This document shows positions 31,094 through 43,671 of a DNA stretch of 64,000 nucleotides, in pieces. Each line of letters begins with the position of its first letter. The stretch's first letter is position 1. The stretch lies in assembly GCA_012729455.1 (NCBI GenBank), contig JAAYDC010000006.1, forward strand, positions 215,782-279,781, written 5' to 3'. A program made the translations under genes and the position numbers. The notes beneath the pieces were generated by a model, which saw only the letters and a list, made by a program, of their open reading frames with translations, was not told where the DNA came from and ran no database searches. Source of the DNA: Chloroflexota bacterium. Its GTDB lineage: Bacteria; Chloroflexota; Anaerolineae; UBA1429.

Positions 31094-32774
31094 ATGATCT
31101 CGACTACTGATTTTCAGATCGGGGTAGAGAGTATCCTTCCGGGCGAAGCGGATTGGTTCGCCACTATCTATGGCTGCTGGTTTGGCAAGTACTTTTCCGA
31201 GGCGCAGCTGCAGATGGCCCTGCGTGAAGTAGGTGCACAATTCACCCTCTTTTACGACTCGTTGGCGCCAAAGAAGCCCGATGCCTGCCGGCGCATTGCC
31301 GAGATGTGCACTCGCCTCGAGCTGCCCTTTCTCTACAACAACACCTATGGCGATATCTATGGTCCCTGGCTGGAAGGCACCGGGCGTGCCGAGTACCGCC
31401 CTGAGGACCTGACGCGCGCGGCTCAGACGGGCTTGTTTCGCGGCGTGGTGTGGGATGAAGTCGAGCACCGTCAGCTGCACGGTACCGACACGGGCGGCCT
31501 GCCCTATTTCATCGACGCGCGCGGCAAGAGCCCCGTACAGTGCTATGACGAGCTGGTAGCTGCCGTTTCGCACGCTACCTCCGCCTATGCCGCCTGTGGC
31601 GCCGAGAACGTCGCCGAGATGGTCTTTCCGGTGCTGATGCACGAGCTGGCGCGTGGAGGCATGCATCCGGCACCCAAGGTACTCAAAGAATCGTTCAACC
31701 CGTTGGTGCTGGCGATCGCCATGGGAGCAGCCCTGCAATACGACCGCCAGCTATGGGCAGTGGCGGATCTGTGGGGACTGGTATCTTTCTGGGGCAGCTT
31801 GTTCACTGGCGCCTATGAAGGCGCTCCGGCACACAGCCCCGACGAATACCTCTCGTCACTCTTGTTGTGCTATTGGATGGGCCTGGATGCCGTCTACACC
31901 GAAGGGCTCTACAACCTGATCGTGCCCGTACACACCACCCAGGCCGAGTGGGACGACCTGGTCGCCAACATGATTCGCCATCGCGGCCAGTCAAACCCGC
32001 TGGTGCTGGATTATCGATGGCAAGCTGCACCGCTGGTTCAGCCGTGAGTATGTGCCCGCTCATCCGCGCGGCTTTACCTTTCGCGATGTGCCCCCCGAGG
32101 TCGCCATCATCTGCCTGCCCGATTCGACCTGGGCGAGCCGCGGGGGCAGTGCCTGGGCTAGCCACGATACCTTGTTCGGGCCGGGCGGTCCCCCAAAAGA
32201 GGCGCGCCACGAGGCCTATCTGGATGCGATTCATCTGCTGACCCATGGTCAGGTGCCGCGCACCGGTCTGACAATGCACAACCAGCCCTACAGTGCACTG
32301 GTAAATGACATCGCCGAGGCCATCTCGGCCGCCAACGACCCCGCGGATTATCCGTACCAGGATTTCCACAGCGGTTTCTGCGCCCTGAACGGCCTAGTGG
32401 TGTTTGACCACACAGTTACCCACCAACTGGAGGGTATCCCGCTCCTGATTTGCACCGGCGAGCTGCTCAGCCCCGACACACAGGCCGCCATCACTGACAG
32501 TGTCACTCGGGGAGCGCGTTGTCTGGCGCTGCCGCATTTATTGCCGCAGGTAGCCCATGGCCGTGGCCACGACCAGCCCTGTCTGGTGCAGGATGGCGCG
32601 GGCGCGTACCTCTTTACCGACGACCTGATGAGCGACGCGGCGCGCGCGTTTATCGCCCCGCACCTGGGGCCCAGCGATGCTGTGCGCTACAGGTTCGCCA
32701 ACTTTTGTGTTACCATGCAACCCATCAACGGCGACGAACGCCGTCTGCGCGTACAGGTTGATCGTTACGAGTAG
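31094..32774 (+). pseudogene. Unknown ~560-residue protein with one frameshift
   Basis: A protein I cannot assign to a family. The first frame reads from ATG 31094, after GCAGGAGG, to a stop at 32047. At about 32008 the sequence continues coherently in the next frame (IIDGKLHRWFSREYV) to 32774. One extra G near 32008 explains the break. The N-terminal part is rich in aromatic and acidic residues, with FRGVVWDEVEHRQ as a candidate acidic catalytic region, suggestive of a TIM-barrel glycosidase. The C-terminal part looks like a beta/alpha domain. It leads a plus-strand unit with the archaemetzincin-like and GH38 genes. Confidence 0.55.
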
Positions 32775-32789
32775 ATAGTTGGCTGGACC

Positions 32790-33506
32790 ATGTTAAAGTT
32801 TATCTCGGTTTTCTGGATCGATGCCGTCAGCGAGGCGGAATATACCGCCGCGACGCAAGCCATGGAGCAGATGATCATGCACCTGACGCTGCGCACGCCC
32901 AGCGCGCTGGAACATCCGCCTTTGAGGCTGCGCCTGTATGGCAACTGGTTCATCCCTGCCTTGATGCCGCATGCCCCCTACTGGGGCATCCAGTGGTATG
33001 TGGATCAAACCTACCAGGCTGAACTGGACCGCGTGATCGCCCCCGATCTGCTTGAGCTGATCCGCAAAGAACCCTGGCAGGAGGCGTCTCCGCATTATGA
33101 CCTGGTGATGATCGACTTGCCGCTCACCGATATGCCCGCCCCGCTGGCGCGTTTGCGCTCGGACTATGCCACCCTCTCCAACAGCCTGCACGGCCTGGCG
33201 GCGGTGATTTCGGTCAACGAAGTGCGCAAACTGCACAGCCTGGAGCAGGAGGCCGGCATACGCCGTCTGGCGCGCCACGCTCTTGGGCATATGCTGGGGG
33301 CGATTGATCTTGCTCGGCAGGAGCAGGTTGAACGGCGCGGCACCGAGATGCACTGCACCAACCGCTGCGTGATGCGCCACGCTGCCGATGCCGCCGAGCT
33401 GGCCGAACTGGCTCAGGATGAAGCCGCCCTGGAGTGGGATTTTTGCCCTCTGTGTACCCGCAGCCTGGATAGCCTGTTCAAACATGAAATATTCTCAAGC
33501 AACTGA
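32790..33506 (+). CDS. Archaemetzincin-like protein with altered active site
   Basis: A 238-residue protein resembling archaemetzincin metallopeptidases. The family signature is HExxHxxGxxHC, then C-x-M and CxxC. Here residues 163-167 are HALGH, then MLG, a 17-residue insertion, then MHCTNRCVM (188-195) and CPLC (219-222). Upstream GLAAVISVNEVR and YDLVMIDLPLTD fit the beta strands before the active site. The catalytic Glu is Ala (codon GCT at 33279), so peptidase activity is doubtful although the metal His and the Cys zinc site are kept. The frame is intact. It starts 15 bases after the unknown gene and ends 15 bases before the GH38 gene. The match is motif-based. Confidence 0.55.
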   Translation: MLKFISVFWIDAVSEAEYTAATQAMEQMIMHLTLRTPSALEHPPLRLRLYGNWFIPALMPHAPYWGIQWYVDQTYQAELDRVIAPDLLELIRKEPWQEASPHYDLVMIDLPLTDMPAPLARLRSDYATLSNSLHGLAAVISVNEVRKLHSLEQEAGIRRLARHALGHMLGAIDLARQEQVERRGTEMHCTNRCVMRHAADAAELAELAQDEAALEWDFCPLCTRSLDSLFKHEIFSSN

Positions 33507-33521
33507 CCCAGGAGGATCCCC

Positions 33522-36500
33522 ATGCGCCTGACATTACGCCGCCTGAGCGCTCGCCTTGCCGAGGTCAACAGCCGCATCGCCCGCCGGGTGGCGCCCATCA
33601 CCGGCTGGCGCCTCCTGCCAGAAGCTGAGACGACCCGCCAGATCCCCGCCGATGATGACCCGCGCTGGCAGCCCTTTGCTATTGGCGATTGGTGGGGCGC
33701 CGACGAGAACCTCACGCACGCTTGGTTTGCATGTGAGGTAGCCCGCCGAATGGGGCGCCGAAGCAGCCCTGCGGCTGCGCCTGGGTGAGACCAACCGGCG
33801 CGAATACCCCGAGGCACTGGCTTATCTCGATGGCCAGCCGCACCAGGGGATCGACCGCAACCACGAGATCCTGCGCCTGGATAGCGATTCGGCCGGCAAA
33901 AAGCTCCGGGTGGCACTGGAGGCCTGGCGCGGACGCAACTATAGCGCCGAACGCTTCTGGCAGGCTGACCTGGTATGCCTCGATGAGGTTGCCAACGCCT
34001 TTTACTATGACGCCCTGGTGGCGCTCGAGGTAAGCAAGATCCTGCCCGAAACCGACTATACCCGCATCCGCCTGCTGGATATCCTCGAGCGTGCTATCGC
34101 CCAAATCGATTACTCTGAGCCGATTGGCGACGCCTTTTATGCCAGCCTCGTGCAAGCCCAAAACACCCTGCGGGAGCTGCTCGCGGCCGAACAGCTGGCC
34201 CCAAACGCGAAAAGGTGTGCGCCATCGGGCACGCCCACATCGATGTGGCCTGGCTATGGCCTTTGGCCCAAACCCGCCAGAAGACGGCGCGCACCTTTAG
34301 CACCGCCCTGCGCATGATGGAGCGTTACCCGAGTTACCGCTTTATCTCCAGCCAGGCGCAGCTGTATCAGTACATCCAGCAGGATTACCCCGAGGTGCTT
34401 GCTCAGATCCAGGAGCGCGTGCGCGAGGGGCGCTGGGAGGTCAACGGCGGCACCTGGGTCGAAATGGACACCAACGTTACCAGCGGTGAATCGCTGGTAC
34501 GCCAGTTCCTTTACGGTCGGCAGTTTTTCCGCGAGCTCTTTGGTCAGGATGGCACCATCCTGTGGCTGCCGGACGTCTTTGGGTACAGCGGTGCCTTGCC
34601 GCAAATCATCCAGCAGGCCGGCATGCGCTACTTTATGACTACCAAGATCAGCTGGAACCAGTATAACCGCTTCCCCTACGACACCTTTTACTGGCAGGGC
34701 ATCGACGGCACTCGGGTGCTGACTCACTTTGCCACCACGCCCTCGGATACCTGGTTTTATACCTATAACGGCTACCTGCGCCCAAAGGAGGTACAGGGCA
34801 CCTGGGATGCCAACTCCGGACACGCTTTTACCGATGAAGTGCTGATGAGCTATGGCTTTGGCGATGGCGGCGGCGGCCCAACCCCCGACATGGTCGAGCA
34901 GGGCGTCCGGTTGGCCAACACCCCCGGCGCGCCTCAGTTGGTGATGGATACCGCCCAGGCCTTTTTCGAGCGCCTGGAAGACAAGGTGGCCGATAAAGCG
35001 TTGCCGGTGTGGAACGGCGAGCTCTATCTCGAATATCACCGCGGCACGCTCACCTCACAGGCCCAAAACAAGCGTGCGAACCGCAAGAGCGAGATCCTCT
35101 ACCACCAGGCAGAGGCGGTAGCCGCCGCCGCGGCGCTGCTGGGCGAGCCCTATCCCTCTCAGGAGCTGCTGCGCGGCTGGCGCCTGATTCTGCTCAACCA
35201 GTTTCACGATATTCTGCCGGGCTCATCGATCCGCCCAGTGTATGAGGACTGCACACGTGACTATGCCGAGATCCGCGCCATCGGCGAGCAAGTGCGCGAC
35301 GGATCCGCCGCGGCCATCGCGCGGCGCGCCACCAACGATTCGCACGCCCTCGTGGTGTTCAACACCAACAGCTTTGCGCTGACCGACCTGGTGACGCTGA
35401 GCACTCCCGAAGGCCTGGCAACGCCGGTACTGATCGACTGCAGCACTGGCAACCGCCTGTTGATCCAGGCGGTCGAGCATGGCTGGCTGGCGCTGGTGCC
35501 GGATATTCCCGCTTACGGCTACAAGGTGCTGGCCTGGCAAGACGCTGCGGGTACGGTAAAAGTAGAGGTTCCCGGTGAGTTGACCGTTTCATCCAGCCAC
35601 ATCGAGACCCCCTTCCTGCGCCTGATGCTGGCTCCGGACGGCTCGCTGGCGAGCTGTTATGACAAGCACGCCCAGCGCGAGGTGCTGGCAGACGGTCAGC
35701 GCGGCAACCTGCTGCAGGCTTTTGAAGACAAACCGCTCGGCAACGATGCCTGGATATCGACATTTTTTACCTTGACAAGTGCTGGGAGATCGACGACCTC
35801 GAGAGCATTCGCGTGGTGGAAAGCGGTCCGCTAAGGGTCAGCCTCGAGCTGGTGCGTCGCTGGCGCCACTCGTGCATTACCCAGCGCATCCACGCCTACC
35901 AGCACACCACGCGCATCGATTTCGATACCGAGGTCGACTGGCACGAACACCACATCCTCCTAAAGGCCGCCTTCCCAGCTGCCATTCACAGCACCAGCGC
36001 CACCTACGAGATCCAGTTCGGCGCCCTCGAGCGCCCCACCCACTGGAACACCTCGTGGGATTACGCGCGCTTTGAGGTGTGCGGGCATCGCTGGGCTGAC
36101 CTCTCGGAGGGCGACTATGGCGTGAGCCTGCTCAACGACTGCAAGTACGGCCACGACATCAAAGACAACGTCCTGCGTCTGACGCTGATCAAGTCAGCCA
36201 CCTCGCCGACCCAGAGGCGGACCAGGGGTTACATCGCTTTACCTATGCGCTCCTTCTGCACCAGGGTGACTGGCGCAGCCAAACGGTCGCACAGGCTGCC
36301 ATGCTCAACAACCCGCCCTTTGCCTTCGTTGCGCGCGGTAATGGCACTACTGCCGACCTGCCGGCAGCCGTGAGTCTGGTTTTGTGCAGCAGCGCGCATG
36401 TGGTGGTGGATACCATCAAGCAGGCCGAGGATGGTAACGGGTTGATCGTGCGCATGTACGAGGCATATGGCCAGCGCGGACCGGTAACTCTCGCCTTTGC

Positions 36501-36633
36501 CAGGCCGATCCGCCGGGCAATTTTGTGCAACCTGATCGAGGAAAATGGCGAGGATCTGCGCACCGAGGGCAAGAGCCTGACCCTCAGCCTGACGCCGTAT
36601 CAGCTGCGCTCGCTGCGCGTTGAGCTGTTATAG
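33522..36633 (+). pseudogene. GH38 alpha-mannosidase with four frameshifts
   Basis: A GH38 alpha-mannosidase of about 1037 residues broken into five frames. Segment 1 starts MRLTLRRLSARL after AGGAGG. An extra A near 33740 shifts it to PAEWGAEAALRLRLGE. A missing base near 34208 restores KVCAIGHAHIDVAWLWPLA, the catalytic and zinc-binding start of the domain. This frame carries WLPDVFGYSGALPQI, with the nucleophile Asp. A missing G near 35752 leads into DIDIFYLDKCWEIDD, and a missing base near 36210 into DPEADQGLHRFTYALLLHQ, ending at 36633. The sequence between breaks is conserved. It would release alpha-mannose from imported glycans. It overlaps purN by six bases. Confidence 0.82.
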
Positions 36634-37236
36634 CTCGGGGAGGCTTTTCAGCACGTCGCGAATCGCCGCCGGGTAAATACAATGCTCGGCGGCGTGCATG
36701 CGCGCCTCCAGCGTCTCCAAGGTGTCTTCCGGAAGGATCGGCACCTCGACTTGGCTCACCACCGGCCCCTCGTCGACGCCTTCATCCGGCGCATAATGCA
36801 CCATGATGCCGGTGTGGCGGATTTCGCCGCGCTGATAAGCCTCATAGGCTCGCTGGATGGCGTGCATACCCGGGAATGTGCCGGGCAACGCCGGGTGAAT
36901 GTTGATCACGCGCCGTTCGTAGCGCCCTAAAAACGCCATACTCAGGATGTGCATCCAGCCGGCTAGCACCACCAGGTCGGGGCAGTAGGGCGCGAGCAGG
37001 GTTGCCAAGTCGGCGTCATACTCGCGGCGGTTGCGGCCTTCGACCACATAGGGCTTGAGGGGATGATAGATCGCCGGGATACCGCGCTGCAGAGCACGCC
37101 CCAGGGCGCCGGCATCTTTGCGGTTGACCAGCACCACCGCCACACGCACATCCTCCAGCTCCCCCGAGGCACACGCATCCATAATAGCCTGCAGGTTGGA
37201 GCCATTGCCTGAAGCCAGCACCGCCAGGCGTCTCAA
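36628..37236 (-). CDS. purN: Phosphoribosylglycinamide formyltransferase (folate-dependent)
   Basis: PurN adds a formyl group from 10-formyl-THF to GAR. The 202-residue protein begins RRLAVLASGNGSNLQAI, the phosphate-binding loop, and has VINIHPALPGTFPG with the catalytic His, TGIMVHYAPDEGVDEGPVV with catalytic Asp, and LEARMHAAEHCIYPAAI. Length is typical. Its start overlaps the purM stop by four bases and it is the last gene of the purine operon. Confidence 0.95.
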   Translation of the reverse strand: MRRLAVLASGNGSNLQAIMDACASGELEDVRVAVVLVNRKDAGALGRALQRGIPAIYHPLKPYVVEGRNRREYDADLATLLAPYCPDLVVLAGWMHILSMAFLGRYERRVINIHPALPGTFPGMHAIQRAYEAYQRGEIRHTGIMVHYAPDEGVDEGPVVSQVEVPILPEDTLETLEARMHAAEHCIYPAAIRDVLKSLPEL

Positions 37237-38261
37237 CGCAGCACCACCCGTTCGTCACCTGCGGTTGCGACCACCCGCCCGATTTGGCGGGCAGTGTCGC
37301 CAGCGGCGGCGATGGCTGCCTCAGCGTCACCGGCTGCCACCACGGCAACCATACCAATGCCCATGTTAAAGACGCGGTACATCTCGTCGTGGTCGATGTG
37401 TCCCTCGCGTTCGATCAGCCTGAAGAGCTCGGGTGCTTCCCAGTTTCCGCGCTCCAGCTCGATGCCCAGCCCATCCGGCAGGATACGCGGCAGGTTATCG
37501 ATAAACCCGCCGCCGGTAATGTGCGCTAACCCCTTGACGCTCACCTGTGCGCGCAGCCGGCGCACGTCGTCGAGGTAGGACCGATGCGGACGCACCAAGG
37601 CATCGCCCAGCGGTTCACCCAGCAACTCGGCATACATGCCATAGGTTTCGGCCGGAAACACACGCCGGATGAGGCTAAAGCCGTTGGTGTGCGGACCGCT
37701 GGAGGGCAGCCCGACCAACATATCGCCTTCGGCTATCGTAGAGCCGTCGATCATGTTGGCACGGTTGACCAGCCCCACAATGGTACCAACCAGGTCGAGC
37801 TCGCCGGGCAGATAGACGCCGGGCATTTCGGCCGTTTCGCCGCCCAAAAGTGCACAGCCGGCCTCACGGCAGGCCGCCGCCGCCCCCGAGACCACCTCAG
37901 CCACCAGCTGCGGGTCGAGCTCGGGCATGGCGATGTAATCCAGGAAAAAGAGCGGCTCGGCGCCCTGCACGAGGATGTCGTTAACGCAATGGTTGACGAT
38001 GTCCATCCCCAGGCTTTGGTAGCTGCCCAGAGCGCTCGCTACCATCGTCTTAGTGCCCACCCCATCGGTGGAAGCCACCAGGGTGGGCGCATCCATCTCC
38101 TTTAACCGCGAGACATCATATAACCCGCCAAAGGCGCCGATCCCCAACAGCACCTCGGGACCATAGGTCGAGCGGACTGCCTGGCTCATCAGGCGTACGA
38201 CCTGGTTACCGGCATCCAGGTTGATGCCAGCTGCCCGATATGCGTTCGCGCTAGGGGTCAT
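37233..38261 (-). CDS. purM: Phosphoribosylformylglycinamidine cyclo-ligase (AIR synthetase)
   Basis: PurM closes FGAM to AIR with ATP. The 342-residue protein has ASTDGVGTKTMVA, the conserved substrate loop, HCVNDILVQGAEPLFFLDYIA in part, GGETAEMPGVY, DMLVGLPSSGPHTNGFSLIR and AHITGGGFIDNLPR. These are the PurM/PurL superfamily ATP and metal motifs. GGGAGGT precedes the ATG at 38261. purD ends one base upstream and purN starts within its last codons, so the operon is contiguous. Confidence 0.96.
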   Translation of the reverse strand: MTPSANAYRAAGINLDAGNQVVRLMSQAVRSTYGPEVLLGIGAFGGLYDVSRLKEMDAPTLVASTDGVGTKTMVASALGSYQSLGMDIVNHCVNDILVQGAEPLFFLDYIAMPELDPQLVAEVVSGAAAACREAGCALLGGETAEMPGVYLPGELDLVGTIVGLVNRANMIDGSTIAEGDMLVGLPSSGPHTNGFSLIRRVFPAETYGMYAELLGEPLGDALVRPHRSYLDDVRRLRAQVSVKGLAHITGGGFIDNLPRILPDGLGIELERGNWEAPELFRLIEREGHIDHDEMYRVFNMGIGMVAVVAAGDAEAAIAAAGDTARQIGRVVATAGDERVVLR

Positions 38262-38262
38262 T

Positions 38263-39543
38263 TTATACCTCCCGTGCCAAGCCTTTGGCTGCTATATCGT
38301 GACGATAGCGCATATCCTGCCAGCGGATCATCCCGGCAGCGCGATAAGCCAGCTGTTGAGCGCTAGCCAGATCGTCCGCCACGGCCGTCACGCCCAAAAC
38401 ACGTCCGCCAGCGGTAACGACCTGGTCGTCCTCGCGGCGGGTGCCGGCGTGAAAGACAGTCACCTCGGACAAGGCTTCGGCCTCTGCAAGGCCAGTGATC
38501 AGGACGCCCTTGCGATAACTGCCCGGGTAGCCTCCCGCGGCGAGTACCACACACACCGCGCTGGCATCCTTCCAGACAATCGGCAGCTGTGCCAGGGTGC
38601 CGTTCAGACACGCCTGCATCACCTGCACCAGGCTGGTCTCGAGCAACGGCAGGATCACCTGCGTTTCCGGGTCGCCAAAGCGGCAGTTGAACTCGAGCAC
38701 ATGGATATCCTGCTCCCCGAGCATCAGGCCGGCGTACAGCACGCCCTTGTATGGGGTGCCGCGCGCTGCCATGCCATCTAGCACGGGCTGCAGCACACGC
38801 TGGCGCACAAAGCCGAGCTGGGCATCGTCCAGGAGCGGCGCCGGCGCATAGGCGCCCATCCCGCCAGTGTTGGGGCCGCGATCGCCGTCATAGGCGGCTT
38901 TATGGTCCTGCGCCAGGACCATCGGCACCGCGACAGTGCCATCGCAAAAGGCCAGCACCGAAACTTCCTGACCGCTTAGGAACTCTTCGATCACCACCTC
39001 GTCGCCAGCAGCGCCAAAATCCCGAGCACGCATGATGCTATCCAGGGCGGCACGCGCCTCGTCATGGGTCTGGCAGATGATCACACCCTTGCCGGCCGCC
39101 AGACCGGTGGCCTTGACCACCAGCGGCAACGGCTGGGTTTGGGCATATTCCCAGGCAGCCTCGTATGCGTCAAACGCGCGGTGCGCAGCGGTGGGAATGC
39201 CGTTTTCGACCATGAACTGTTTGCTAAAGACCTTGGAGCCCTCCAGCTGGGCAGCCGCGGCGACTGGTCCAAAAGCCGCGACGCCCTCCTGCTGCAGGCG
39301 GTCGACCAGTCCGAGCGCCAGCGGCACCTCGGGGCCAACTACCACCAGGTCGATCGCCTCGCGGCACGCAAAATCTGTGAGGCCGGCCAGGTCATCGGCT
39401 GCCAGCGGTACCGTCTGGGCCAGACTGTCCGTACCGCCATTGCCCGGGGCGATATAGAGCTCGCCCGCCTCAGGGCAGTGCCGCAACGCCCACAGCAGGG
39501 CGTGTTCGCGTCCGCCAGAACCGACTACCAGGATGCGTATCAC
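38263..39543 (-). CDS. purD: Phosphoribosylamine-glycine ligase
   Basis: PurD joins glycine to phosphoribosylamine with ATP. The 426-residue ATP-grasp enzyme begins IRILVVGSGGREHALLWAL, has PGNGGTDSLA, VVGPEVPLALGLVDRL, the ATP-grasp lid motif LVVKATGLAAGKGVII, GDRGPNTGGMGAYAP, and FNCRFGDPETQVILP. Length is normal. The start is GTG at 39543, which overlaps the TGA of purF (GTGA), so translation is likely coupled. Confidence 0.96.
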   Translation of the reverse strand: MIRILVVGSGGREHALLWALRHCPEAGELYIAPGNGGTDSLAQTVPLAADDLAGLTDFACREAIDLVVVGPEVPLALGLVDRLQQEGVAAFGPVAAAAQLEGSKVFSKQFMVENGIPTAAHRAFDAYEAAWEYAQTQPLPLVVKATGLAAGKGVIICQTHDEARAALDSIMRARDFGAAGDEVVIEEFLSGQEVSVLAFCDGTVAVPMVLAQDHKAAYDGDRGPNTGGMGAYAPAPLLDDAQLGFVRQRVLQPVLDGMAARGTPYKGVLYAGLMLGEQDIHVLEFNCRFGDPETQVILPLLETSLVQVMQACLNGTLAQLPIVWKDASAVCVVLAAGGYPGSYRKGVLITGLAEAEALSEVTVFHAGTRREDDQVVTAGGRVLGVTAVADDLASAQQLAYRAAGMIRWQDMRYRHDIAAKGLAREV

Positions 39544-40994
39544 GAGCTGCCCGCCCCCGACTGTGATTCTTTGGGCACGAATCCGCCTGCCTTTTGTCGG
39601 AAGAGATACTCACCGCTGAAACAGGCCACGCAAAAGTTGCCCTGCGGGCGCGCGGCAGCCTTGATCATGCCGTCGATACTGAGGAACCCGAGTGTATCCG
39701 CTCCCACCATCTGACGGATCCCTTCGACCGACATGCGGTGGGCGATCAGCTCGTCATAGGTAGCCATGTCGACCCCCATAAAGCAGGGATGCTCGATCGG
39801 CGCCGAGGAGATGCGCAGATGCACTTCGGCCGCACCGGCCGCGCGCAGCATATCCACAATCGGCTTGCTGGTGGTGCCGCGCACGATCGAGTCATCCACC
39901 ACCACCAGGCGTTTGCCCGCCAGCACGCGGCTGAGAGTGTTGAACTTTAATGCCACACCGGCTTTGCGCAGGTGGTCATCGGGCTGGATAAAGGTACGCC
40001 CGATATAGCGGTTCTTTACAAAACCCTCGGAATAGGGGATGCCCGATTCGAGGGCATAACCGATGGCATGCGCCGTAGCAGAATCCGGCACGCCCATCAC
40101 CAGATCAGCCTCGACAGGATGCTCGCGCGCAAGCTCGCGCCCCAGTTCCTGGCGTACTTCGTGGATCAGTTGCCCGTCGATGATGCTGTCGGGGCGCGCA
40201 AAATAGATGTATTCAAAGATGCACAGATTAGGCTTGCCGGCAGGCACGCCCTGGATGATGCGCATGCCGTCTTTATCGACGATGACGATCTCGCCGGGCT
40301 GGATCTCGCGGATCTCGCTCGCCCCAAGGGTCTGCAAGGCACACGTTTCGGAGGCGATCATCCAGCCTTGATGGAGCTTGCCGACCGAGAGCGGACGGAA
40401 ACCCCACGGGTCGCGCACGCCGTACAGCGCGTCGCGGGTGAGGATCGTCAGGCAATAAGCGCCCATCGCCTTTTCCATCAGCTGCTTGATGCGCTCGAGC
40501 CAGGTATCGCCCGTACTGCCCACCAGCACCTGCAACAGCGTCTCGGTGTCGGATTTGGAGGTCAGCCCCACCCCGCGCGCAAAGAGCTCCTGGCGCAGCT
40601 CGCCCGAGTTGACCAGGTTGCCATTGTGTGAGATGGCGATCGGCCCGAGGGCGGATTCGAGGCGAAACGGCCCGGCGCTGACGCGACGCGATGAATCGGC
40701 CGTCGAGTAACGCACATGGCCGATGCCGATATGGCCCTGGAGGGGCGCCAGGTTGGTCTCGTTAAAAACCTGCGAAACCAGTCCCATCTCTTTATAGATC
40801 GTCAGGTTCTGTCCATCCGAGACGGCAATGCCGGCCGATTCCTGGCCGCGGTGTTGCAGGGCATAGAGGGCGAAAAAGGTCAGGCGCGCTGCATCTGCGC
40901 CGGGCAAATAGATGCCAAATACCCCGCACTCTTCGTGCGGATGATCATCCGCGCTTGCCTCCGGCGCACAAGCCAGCAGGTGAGGTTCGATCAC
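39540..40994 (-). CDS. purF: Amidophosphoribosyltransferase
   Basis: PurF makes phosphoribosylamine from PRPP and glutamine. The 484-residue protein has a 22-residue leader before Cys of ECGVFGIY, which is the glutaminase nucleophile after propeptide removal. ALQHRGQESAGIAV and GIGHVRYST continue that domain. The PRTase loop is LVVVDDSIVRGTTSK. The C-terminal NFCVACFSGEY gives the CxxC that, with other Cys residues, ligates a 4Fe-4S cluster in the Bacillus-type enzyme. The start is GTG at 40994 within a GTGA overlap with purE. It lies between purE and purD in the operon. Confidence 0.96.
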   Translation of the reverse strand: MIEPHLLACAPEASADDHPHEECGVFGIYLPGADAARLTFFALYALQHRGQESAGIAVSDGQNLTIYKEMGLVSQVFNETNLAPLQGHIGIGHVRYSTADSSRRVSAGPFRLESALGPIAISHNGNLVNSGELRQELFARGVGLTSKSDTETLLQVLVGSTGDTWLERIKQLMEKAMGAYCLTILTRDALYGVRDPWGFRPLSVGKLHQGWMIASETCALQTLGASEIREIQPGEIVIVDKDGMRIIQGVPAGKPNLCIFEYIYFARPDSIIDGQLIHEVRQELGRELAREHPVEADLVMGVPDSATAHAIGYALESGIPYSEGFVKNRYIGRTFIQPDDHLRKAGVALKFNTLSRVLAGKRLVVVDDSIVRGTTSKPIVDMLRAAGAAEVHLRISSAPIEHPCFMGVDMATYDELIAHRMSVEGIRQMVGADTLGFLSIDGMIKAAARPQGNFCVACFSGEYLFRQKAGGFVPKESQSGAGSS

Positions 40995-41464
40995 AAGTAA
41001 CTCCTATCTGCCGCGATCACGGCGTCCGTCATCTCTTGTTGATATTGGGCTACGCGTGCGCGCAGGGCTTCATCGCTCAGCGCCAGGATCTTGGCGGCCG
41101 CCAGGGCGGCATTTTCGGGTTCGGTAACCACCATTGGGGCCACCCCGCTGGGCATGCGCAGCGACGAGTAGAGGTCGGCCCCGCCAAAGGCGGTGCTGGG
41201 AGGCGGACAGGCGATTACCGGGAAGGTGACGTTGGCATCCACCATGCCGCTGAGGGCATTCGAGCGCCCGGCGATGGTCACCAGCACGGTTGGTTCATCG
41301 GCCGAAAGGCCAGAGATAATCCCCAACAGATGCTGCACGCTTTTGTGGGCCGAGGCCACCCGCACCTGGTAGGGGATGGCAAACCGCTCGAGGGTCGCCT
41401 TGATCTTTACCGCGATCTCGTCGTCGGCCTTGGATCCCATCAGGATCAATACCCGTCCCGCCAT
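40991..41464 (-). CDS. purE: Class II (CO2-using) AIR carboxylase
   Basis: A 157-residue PurE. The motif AGRSNALSGMVDANVTF and ACPPPSTAFGGADLYSSLRM (20 residues) resembles the carboxylase domain of animal PAICS rather than class I PurE, whose equivalent is AGAAAHLPGM. VASAHKSV keeps the catalytic His region. Class II enzymes carboxylate AIR directly with CO2 and need no PurK, and none is found in the operon. purC lies immediately upstream, in the same order as the two halves of PAICS. GAGGAGG precedes the ATG. Its stop overlaps the purF GTG. The class II call is from residue patterns recalled from animal PAICS. Confidence 0.85.
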   Translation of the reverse strand: MAGRVLILMGSKADDEIAVKIKATLERFAIPYQVRVASAHKSVQHLLGIISGLSADEPTVLVTIAGRSNALSGMVDANVTFPVIACPPPSTAFGGADLYSSLRMPSGVAPMVVTEPENAALAAAKILALSDEALRARVAQYQQEMTDAVIAADRSYL

Positions 41465-41482
41465 CGTAACCTCCTCAGCCGA

Positions 41483-42244
41483 TTACTCTTCGACGAACTG
41501 GTCGGTCAGGTCGGCTACTTGCTGATATTTGATCAACAGCTCGCGCAGGCGCTCATCTGTGACCTCGGGCATGTTGCGATAGATCTGTTTGTCGAGCATC
41601 TTGTTCTTGTCGCCGCCCGGCCAGATGCGCCAGGAGTCGTTATCGATCACATCCGCCACCATCAGGCGGCCGTTTTGGTCGCGCCCGAACTCGATCTTGC
41701 AATCCACCAGGGTCACATCCTGAGCAGCCCATTCGCGCTCGAGGATCTCGAACACCCTGCGGCCCGTCTCGTGCATAAAGGCGATCTCATCGGCAGTCGC
41801 CAACCCCAGATCCTGGATCTCTGCATCTGTGACCTGCGGATCGTGGCGGGCATCGTCCTTTAAAAAGGTCTCGACCAGGACCGGGTCAAAGCGGTCTCCC
41901 TCGGACGAGCCCAGCACACGCTTGAGGTACGAGCCGGTAGCGATACGGCGCATGACCACCTCGAGCGGTACCATCGTGCAGCGGTTCACCAGGTTGATGT
42001 TGGGCGCCACCATGCCGATATAGTGCGTGCGGATGCCCTCCAGCTCGAGCAGGTAAAAGACGTTCGAGTTAGTGCGGCACGCCAGAATGCCCTTGCCAGG
42101 CAGCTCGTTGCGGCGCGCGCCATCGCCGGCGGTGATACCATCTTTGTGCAGCATATACACCAGATGATCTTTACCCGGGAAGGCATAGATGACCTTGGTC
42201 TTGCCCTCTGCCAGTTTGTCGCCAAATTCGATTCCGGACGTCAT
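41483..42244 (-). CDS. purC: SAICAR synthetase (PAICS-like PurC)
   Basis: PurC joins CAIR to aspartate. The 253-residue protein has LAEGKTKVIYAF, KDGITAGDGARRNELPGKG, MRRIATGSYLKRVLG, ILEREWAAQDVTLVDCKIEF and VADVIDNDSWRIWPGGDKNK. These match animal PAICS N-terminal domains, including the extra ARRN loop and the DNDSWR block, more than typical bacterial PurC. The ATG at 42244 is favoured because GGGAG lies upstream; an ATG at 42259 overlaps the purB stop and would put that ribosome site inside the gene. purE follows after 18 bases. Confidence 0.93.
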   Translation of the reverse strand: MTSGIEFGDKLAEGKTKVIYAFPGKDHLVYMLHKDGITAGDGARRNELPGKGILACRTNSNVFYLLELEGIRTHYIGMVAPNINLVNRCTMVPLEVVMRRIATGSYLKRVLGSSEGDRFDPVLVETFLKDDARHDPQVTDAEIQDLGLATADEIAFMHETGRRVFEILEREWAAQDVTLVDCKIEFGRDQNGRLMVADVIDNDSWRIWPGGDKNKMLDKQIYRNMPEVTDERLRELLIKYQQVADLTDQFVEE

Positions 42245-42258
42245 GCTTTTATCTCCCA

Positions 42259-43671
42259 TCAGGATTCGTCCTGTTCGCTCAATTCCAGGCGGATCACACG
42301 TGCCAGGTCGCGGCTGCGCCGGGGGGCATCGCCCACGCCAGCACCATCCGCCATAATGCGGCGTATCTCGTCGCCCGTTATATACTGCGTCAGGGCTGCG
42401 TCAGCCGCCAGCAGCTCAGCCAGAGGGTTGGCTTCGCCAGCTTCGACGGCTGCCCAGGCCCGCATACTGGCGGTACGGATCGTCTCGTGCATGATCTGAC
42501 GATCGGCTCCCGCCAGCACCAGAGCCATCAGCAGGCTTTCGGTAGCGGCAAAAGGGCCAAAGCGCTGCATTCCGCGCTGGATGGCAGCCCGGTTAATGCG
42601 CAAGCCCTCGACGATGCGCAGGACGCGCCTGAGGATCTCTTCGACCGCCAGAAAGCCCTCCGGCAAGATGCTGCGGCGGTTGGCGGAATCATCCAGGGTA
42701 CGCTCGAGCGCCGAAAGGGCAGCGTTATCCCAGGCCGCCCGTGGCAGACCCGCCACTACGCGTGCCATTGAGCAGATCGATTCGGCCTGTATCGGGTTAC
42801 GCTTGAATGGCATGGCTGAGGAGCCCACCTGTTGGCGACCGAAAGGCTCGGCCACCTCGCCAAAGGAGGGCGATTGCTGCAGCCGCAGGTCAAAGGCGAA
42901 CTTGTAGGCCGATTGGGCAATCCCTGCCAGCACGGAGAGCACCTGGTAATCCTGCTTGCGCGGATGGGTCTGAGTGCTGACCGGCACCGCCTCGAGCCCC
43001 AGGGACTGCATCACACGCTCCTCGAGTTGCTCGGGGGTGCAGTTACTGCCTGCCAGCAAGTGCGCATACGAGGCAGAGGTGCCCACAGCGCCCTTCAAGC
43101 CCTTGCCGCGGATGGCAGCACGCGCCTCGCACAGGGCGCGGTAATCGTCCAGGAAATCCTGACCATACTGCGCCAGACGGTAGCCGAGGGTGGTCGGCTC
43201 AGCCGGCTGCAGATGGGTATAGGCCATCGTAACCGTATCGGCCTCAGCCTCGATACGCGCCGCCAGGGCGCTCAAGACCTTATTCAACAGCGCGAGCAGC
43301 ATGTCGCAGGCATCGCGCATTCTCAGCGCATCGGCGTTATCTTCGATATCCATGCTGGTAGCGCCCAGATGGATGATCGCCCCGCCCACAGGGCATTGTT
43401 CGGCATAGGTACGCACCTCAGCCATCAAATCGTGGTGCAGATCGCGCTCGAACTCCTGAGCGCGCTCCCAGTCGATATCCCCCTGGTGAGCACGCAACTC
43501 GGCTAATTGCTCGCTCGTCACCAAACCCGCCTCGGACTGGGCCTCGGCCAAGGCTACCCAGATACGGCGCCAGATGCGGCGTTTTTCAACTTCCGACCAT
43601 AGCTGGCGCATGGCGTCGCTGCCATAACGCCAGCCAAAGGGAGATTGGTAAGTTTCCTGTGGGTGTTCCAT
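42259..43671 (-). CDS. purB: Adenylosuccinate lyase
   Basis: PurB removes fumarate from SAICAR and adenylosuccinate. The 470-residue fumarase/aspartase-family protein has VGGAIIHLGATSMDIEDNAD (20 residues) in the first active-site region, TMAYTHLQPAEPTTLGYRLA in the second, and the signature QVGSSAMPFKRNPIQAESIC with the catalytic Ser. The N-terminal half is typical of the eukaryote-like long lyase. It starts three bases after the purQ stop and its stop touches the start codon region of purC. Confidence 0.95.
   Translation of the reverse strand: MEHPQETYQSPFGWRYGSDAMRQLWSEVEKRRIWRRIWVALAEAQSEAGLVTSEQLAELRAHQGDIDWERAQEFERDLHHDLMAEVRTYAEQCPVGGAIIHLGATSMDIEDNADALRMRDACDMLLALLNKVLSALAARIEAEADTVTMAYTHLQPAEPTTLGYRLAQYGQDFLDDYRALCEARAAIRGKGLKGAVGTSASYAHLLAGSNCTPEQLEERVMQSLGLEAVPVSTQTHPRKQDYQVLSVLAGIAQSAYKFAFDLRLQQSPSFGEVAEPFGRQQVGSSAMPFKRNPIQAESICSMARVVAGLPRAAWDNAALSALERTLDDSANRRSILPEGFLAVEEILRRVLRIVEGLRINRAAIQRGMQRFGPFAATESLLMALVLAGADRQIMHETIRTASMRAWAAVEAGEANPLAELLAADAALTQYITGDEIRRIMADGAGVGDAPRRSRDLARVIRLELSEQDES

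Follow-up and report, generated by a model that had tools for sequence, protein, structure and literature searches.

Results and Discussion

Organization of the locus

We have analysed a 64,000 nt stretch of Chloroflexota DNA, referred to here as the window, in which a gene encoding a pseudo-archaemetzincin occupies positions 32790..33506 of the + strand. The open reading frame encodes 238 aa followed by a stop codon, its homologues have intact frames, and its GC content of 0.65/0.42/0.75 by codon position is a normal coding pattern. The segment most conserved in a 52-member alignment, E94-P95-W96-Q97 ... H102-x-D104 (33069..33101, +), precedes the motif HALGHMLG at residues 163-170 (33276..33299, +), formerly HExxHxxG, in which the catalytic Glu has been replaced by Ala. 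The Ala is encoded by GCT at codon 164, two base changes away from Glu, and in this as in the extent of the frame and the position of the motif the first-pass annotation was exact. The 17 residues between G170 and the third His (residues 171-187; 33300..33350, +) had been described as an insertion of that length; the count is correct but the net insertion is only 15, as canonical archaemetzincins (HxxGxxHC) have two residues at this point. E186 (33345..33347, +), two residues before the third His, is an acidic position, Glu or Asp in members with the complete His triad. The third His, the first Cys pair and the Met-turn Met follow in H188-C189-x3-C193-V-M195 (33351..33374, +), which reads H188-C189-T-N-R-C193-V-M195 in the window copy, and C219-P-L-C222 (33444..33455, +) provides the second Cys pair of the Cys4 zinc site, so that the MHC, C-V-M and CPLC elements previously recognised are all present. 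The protein terminates with Asn238 immediately before the stop codon (33501..33506, +). HALGHMLG is not a chance motif, since the 52 homologues, window copy included, have the same frame, Cys pattern and invariant residues.

The gene is flanked in the window and in a sister genus (G001) by genes for a 566-aa protein of no Pfam family and for a GH38 alpha-mannosidase, and GH127 and Gfo/Idh genes are close by. The upstream gene (31094-32774, +) carries one frameshift near 32018 in the window and is intact in G001. Compared with the G001 copy, which is intact and encodes 1042 aa, the GH38 gene (33522-36627, +) has at least four frameshifts; several of the breaks lie near short homopolymers, and either assembly indels or recent pseudogenisation may be responsible. 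Convergent to the gene is a compact purine biosynthesis operon (36628-43671, -) encoding PurN, PurM, PurD, PurE and PurC together with amidophosphoribosyltransferase-like and PurB-like genes, an arrangement kept in the majority of same-family genomes that were examined. Scans of the region for promoters, terminators and Rfam families detected nothing above chance.

Location within a glycan catabolic unit had been considered informative, a view which did not survive comparison between lineages. The combination of GH38, GH127 and Gfo/Idh genes is confined to the window and G001, while in six other genomes of the same GTDB family the gene directly adjoins the convergent pur operon (PurN, PurM, PurD onward) and in one further genome (L060) neither the glycan neighbours nor the pur operon are beside it. 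In other lineages different housekeeping genes adjoin it, of the argS/nadE type, trpS with an aminopeptidase-like gene, cyclophilin with an NDK-like gene, or ribosomal-protein regions; neighbours were named by Pfam in the window and G001 and by eye from the sequences elsewhere. Thus, the glycan unit gives no pointer to function because the neighbours differ among lineages. The neighbourhood comparison found no partner or operon conserved across lineages, and an operon partner was rejected as neighbours vary between them.

Relationship to the archaemetzincins

Descent from the archaemetzincins (M54) is evident at the level of the family profile. An hhalign comparison of this profile with nine bona fide M54 proteins from the same class gave a probability of 97% and an E value of 1.1e-10, compared with 0.49 for the reversed profile and 0.024 for the best of 30 column shuffles. 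The signal comes from the C-terminal half (E 4.6e-11); taken by itself, the N-terminal half has no detectable homology to M54 (E 0.088). In an hmmsearch of the PDB the family profile matched the Archaeoglobus fulgidus archaemetzincin 3zvs first (E 5e-4), the alignment covering the strand that leads into the active helix as well as the His helix, HC, C-x-M and C-x-x-C. Individual members matched PF07998 (7/14, best E 6e-5) and NF033823 (11/14, best E 7.9e-7). The assignment proposed in the first-pass annotation therefore holds for the family, although the profile search suggested there is not significant for the window protein alone, which has no above-threshold match in Pfam or NCBIfam and reaches only E 0.73 with NF033823, under the curated cut-off. 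Shallow AlphaFold models of the window protein and a same-family relative (L017) had pLDDT values of 38.5 and 34.6, respectively, and are uninterpretable.

The family is represented here by 52 usable sequences, including the window copy, from 11 GTDB families of the Chloroflexota. Relatives were detected in 9/15 genomes of the GTDB family to which the window belongs, its own genome counted, in 24/396 genomes of its class and in 33/400 of its phylum. A genome-wide scan with the window sequence alone retrieved one same-family relative, L017 from an Anaerolineae MAG, a record which places the protein group in the Chloroflexota; no relatives were found on viral contigs or plasmids. Each GTDB family with at least two members forms one clade in the gene tree of the 52 sequences, which indicates mainly vertical inheritance. 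No paper describing this group was found in the open-access literature, and from its sequences it is a previously unnamed Chloroflexota family descended from the archaemetzincin zinc proteases.

Loss of the catalytic Glu

HExxH is absent from all 52 members. Position 164 is occupied by Ala, His, Ser, Asn, Gln, Gly, Cys, Tyr or Arg, and once by Glu, in a member (L030) from which both flanking His are gone. In contrast, the canonical M54 proteins checked in the Chloroflexota all have HE..H, so the two groups separate cleanly and the missing Glu is a trait of the family, not of a decayed allele. The two types can coexist, as one relative (G002) carries both a canonical M54 protein and a pseudo-archaemetzincin; no canonical M54 protein was found in the genome containing the window. 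Loss of the Glu preceded diversification of the family, and metzincin-type zinc-dependent peptide hydrolysis is therefore not expected of its members.

For close relatives in three groups, Nei-Gojobori dN/dS values were 0.04-0.15; among these groups are two genera of family f52 whose members have no ligand His. The old active site is thus not needed for the protein to be functional. A complete Cys4 site is found in 49/52 members, and P95, W96, Q97, H102, D104, S141, G166, C193 and C219 are conserved in 52/52, E94 in 51/52, and W9, G51, W53 and Y70 in 51/51 (one truncated row left out). The last residue before the stop codon is Asn in 48/52 members and Ser in 4/52, while all three stop codons are used after it, so the exact C-terminus is itself constrained; this suggests a functional C-terminal residue or a recognition tail. 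In three members of family f26 (L014, L125 and L127) the insertion is largely lost, neither the third His nor the first Cys remains, and C-x-x-C has changed to C-x-x-H, which may reflect a switch of the structural zinc site. The family is thus strongly conserved despite loss of the Glu, and its function is probably not proteolytic.

A probable zinc-stabilised binding protein

The reading we favour, with a probability of about 0.62, is that the gene encodes a vertically inherited, non-peptidase M54 homologue retained as a zinc-stabilised binding protein, analogous to CarG of Myxococcus but not its orthologue. The C-terminal half keeps the M54 layout of former active-site helix, Met-turn and Cys4 zinc site, and the protein would be a soluble binding or scaffold protein stabilised by the Cys4 zinc. 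Its working surface would be formed by the highly conserved N-terminal half (G-x-W, W-Y, E-P-W-Q-x4-H-x-D) and by the C-terminal Asn, which is fixed. In the window lineage a second metal is probably held by H163, H167 and H188 with E186 beside it, forming a structural or ligand-sensing site, and the protein may act as CarG does, as a dead archaemetzincin that binds a partner protein. The sequences show homology, absence of the Glu, selection and joint retention of residues, and metal occupancy, lack of activity and partner binding are what we infer from them. Partner binding has against it that the lineages share neither a partner gene nor an operon. The earlier suggestion of a metal-binding pseudo-protease or a new activity was sound with respect to archaemetzincin descent and conserved loss of the Glu, but gains nothing from the glycan context.

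Retention of the His ligands, previously reported for the window copy, is correct for that protein but does not extend to the family, as at least one of the three His is lost in 32/52 members. H163 and H167 are both present in 22/52 members, H188 accompanies them in 20 of these 22 and is found in none of the 30 members lacking the HxxxH pair, suggesting that the metal site is kept or lost as a unit. The 20 members with a complete triad come from five GTDB families (f1, f8, f24, f65 and f80) and all have an acidic residue at position 186 (Glu in 18, Asp in two), compared with only 3/32 members without the triad, most of the others having Arg. This association implies a single site that includes the His following the insertion, and suggests, from residue co-occurrence, E186 as a candidate replacement carboxylate. 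The protein could accordingly be viewed as a remodelled metalloenzyme in which E/D186 of the inserted loop substitutes for the lost carboxylate (H-x3-H...[E/D]-x-H) in hydrolysis or other metal chemistry, lineages without the triad being secondarily inactive. While Fisher's test gives P 1e-11 for the association, it ignores relatedness; on the tree the triad state changed at least four times, which favours such a site, but the independent contrasts number only 3-4, each of them neutral or consistent, which is not enough for phylogenetic significance, and the association is thus suggestive and unproven. In addition, E186 could be a second-shell residue or fourth metal ligand, and strong purifying selection in triad-less lineages implies that the site is not the only function of the family. 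We therefore regard a remodelled enzyme as unlikely, and a relocated carboxylate, with HExxHxxGxxH turned into HxxGH...(insertion)...[E/D]-x-H-C and the inserted loop contributing the acid beside the third His, is doubtful to the same degree. If true, it would define a new class of metalloenzyme or metal sensor, the relocated site being ancestral and lost as a unit in at least some Chloroflexota lineages in which the scaffold is still strongly selected.

Conservation of the N-terminal half raises the question of a new active site or small-molecule pocket formed there by E94, Q97, H102, D104, W53, W69 and Y70, unrelated to the old zinc site. These residues are conserved in 50-52 of the 52 members, above the old active site except for G166 and two Cys, and lie in the half without detectable M54 homology. 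Invariant Trp, Tyr, Pro and Gly are, however, equally expected of a binding surface or fold core, and we consider such a site or pocket rather improbable.

The window copy itself evolves faster than its sister. Its branch in the gene tree is 1.05 long compared with 0.23 in the sister, it is about 50% identical to two outgroups where the sister is 60% identical, with pur proteins nearly equal, and it has lost 12 of the 66 residues that do not vary among the eight remaining members of the same GTDB family. The long branch and lost residues, together with frameshifts in both flanking genes, are what would be expected if it were the decaying pseudogene of a formerly active protease. Against this, its frame is intact, it retains 19/19 family invariants with all His and Cys ligands, and no relative possesses the HExxH from which such an allele would have decayed. 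A decayed allele, raised as an alternative in the first-pass annotation, is thus very unlikely and was rejected on the family-wide absence of the Glu and the retained invariants. The window copy is probably functional because all 19 invariants are retained, and is perhaps under relaxed or changed constraint. Convergence on an HxxxH and zinc-ribbon arrangement by a protein that is not an archaemetzincin, which would fit the lack of a match for the window protein alone and the unalignable N-terminal half, can scarcely be reconciled with the controlled family-level matches to M54.

Intermediate stages are preserved within the family, from triad plus relocated acid through partial loss to complete loss with Cys4 kept, which make the role of the archaemetzincin scaffold without proteolysis testable. 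Such proteins should not be annotated as metalloproteases. Non-proteolytic roles of the fold are of wider interest since even for the canonical archaemetzincins AfAmzA and MkAmzA standard assays detected no peptidase activity (PMC3427221).

Comparison with known archaemetzincins and CarG

Canonical M54 proteins (PF07998, NF033823; AfAmzA 3zvs/4a3w/4axq, MkAmzA 2x7m) share with this family the C-terminal AV(I/M)S-x-x-R(L/V) strand, a His helix with H-x-x-G-H, HC, the C-x-M Met-turn and C-x-x-C, and thereby the Cys4 zinc site C-x3/4-C-x-M...C-x-x-C. The family differs in lacking the catalytic Glu of HExxHxxG, in the third His, which is displaced from HxxGxxHC by the net insertion, in a spacing of 23 rather than 17 from Met to C-x-x-C, in the absence of the FSN motif and in the N-terminal half, which does not align by profile.

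A parallel is provided by CarG of Myxococcus xanthus (NF033824), in which Gln replaces the Glu (HQxxH) and which has no protease activity, contains two zinc and binds CarD (PMC8156234, PMC4374960, PMC3427221). The family is nevertheless not CarG, since NF033824 was matched by only 2/14 members with a best E value of 0.25, and the window copy gave no match. CarG retains the canonical HxxExxHC spacing in place of an insertion, is reported from myxobacteria only, and has a gene coupled to carD; no such neighbour was recognised for the Chloroflexota family. A standalone CarD-type protein is present in 12/15 family-positive and 18/46 family-negative genomes; this co-occurrence was rejected as it is driven by the GTDB family of the window, in which all 15 genomes have standalone CarD. 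The three family-positive genomes without it indicate that a CarD partner is not general. CarG does resemble the family in being bacterial and in combining a replaced Glu with three His and a Cys4 site, a combination found in the window copy and 19 other members, and a Glu takes the place of the Gly of HxxxHxxG both in CarG and in some relatives (f65, f80). The Chloroflexota proteins would thus join CarG as a second group of catalytically dead archaemetzincins in bacteria, from a different phylum.
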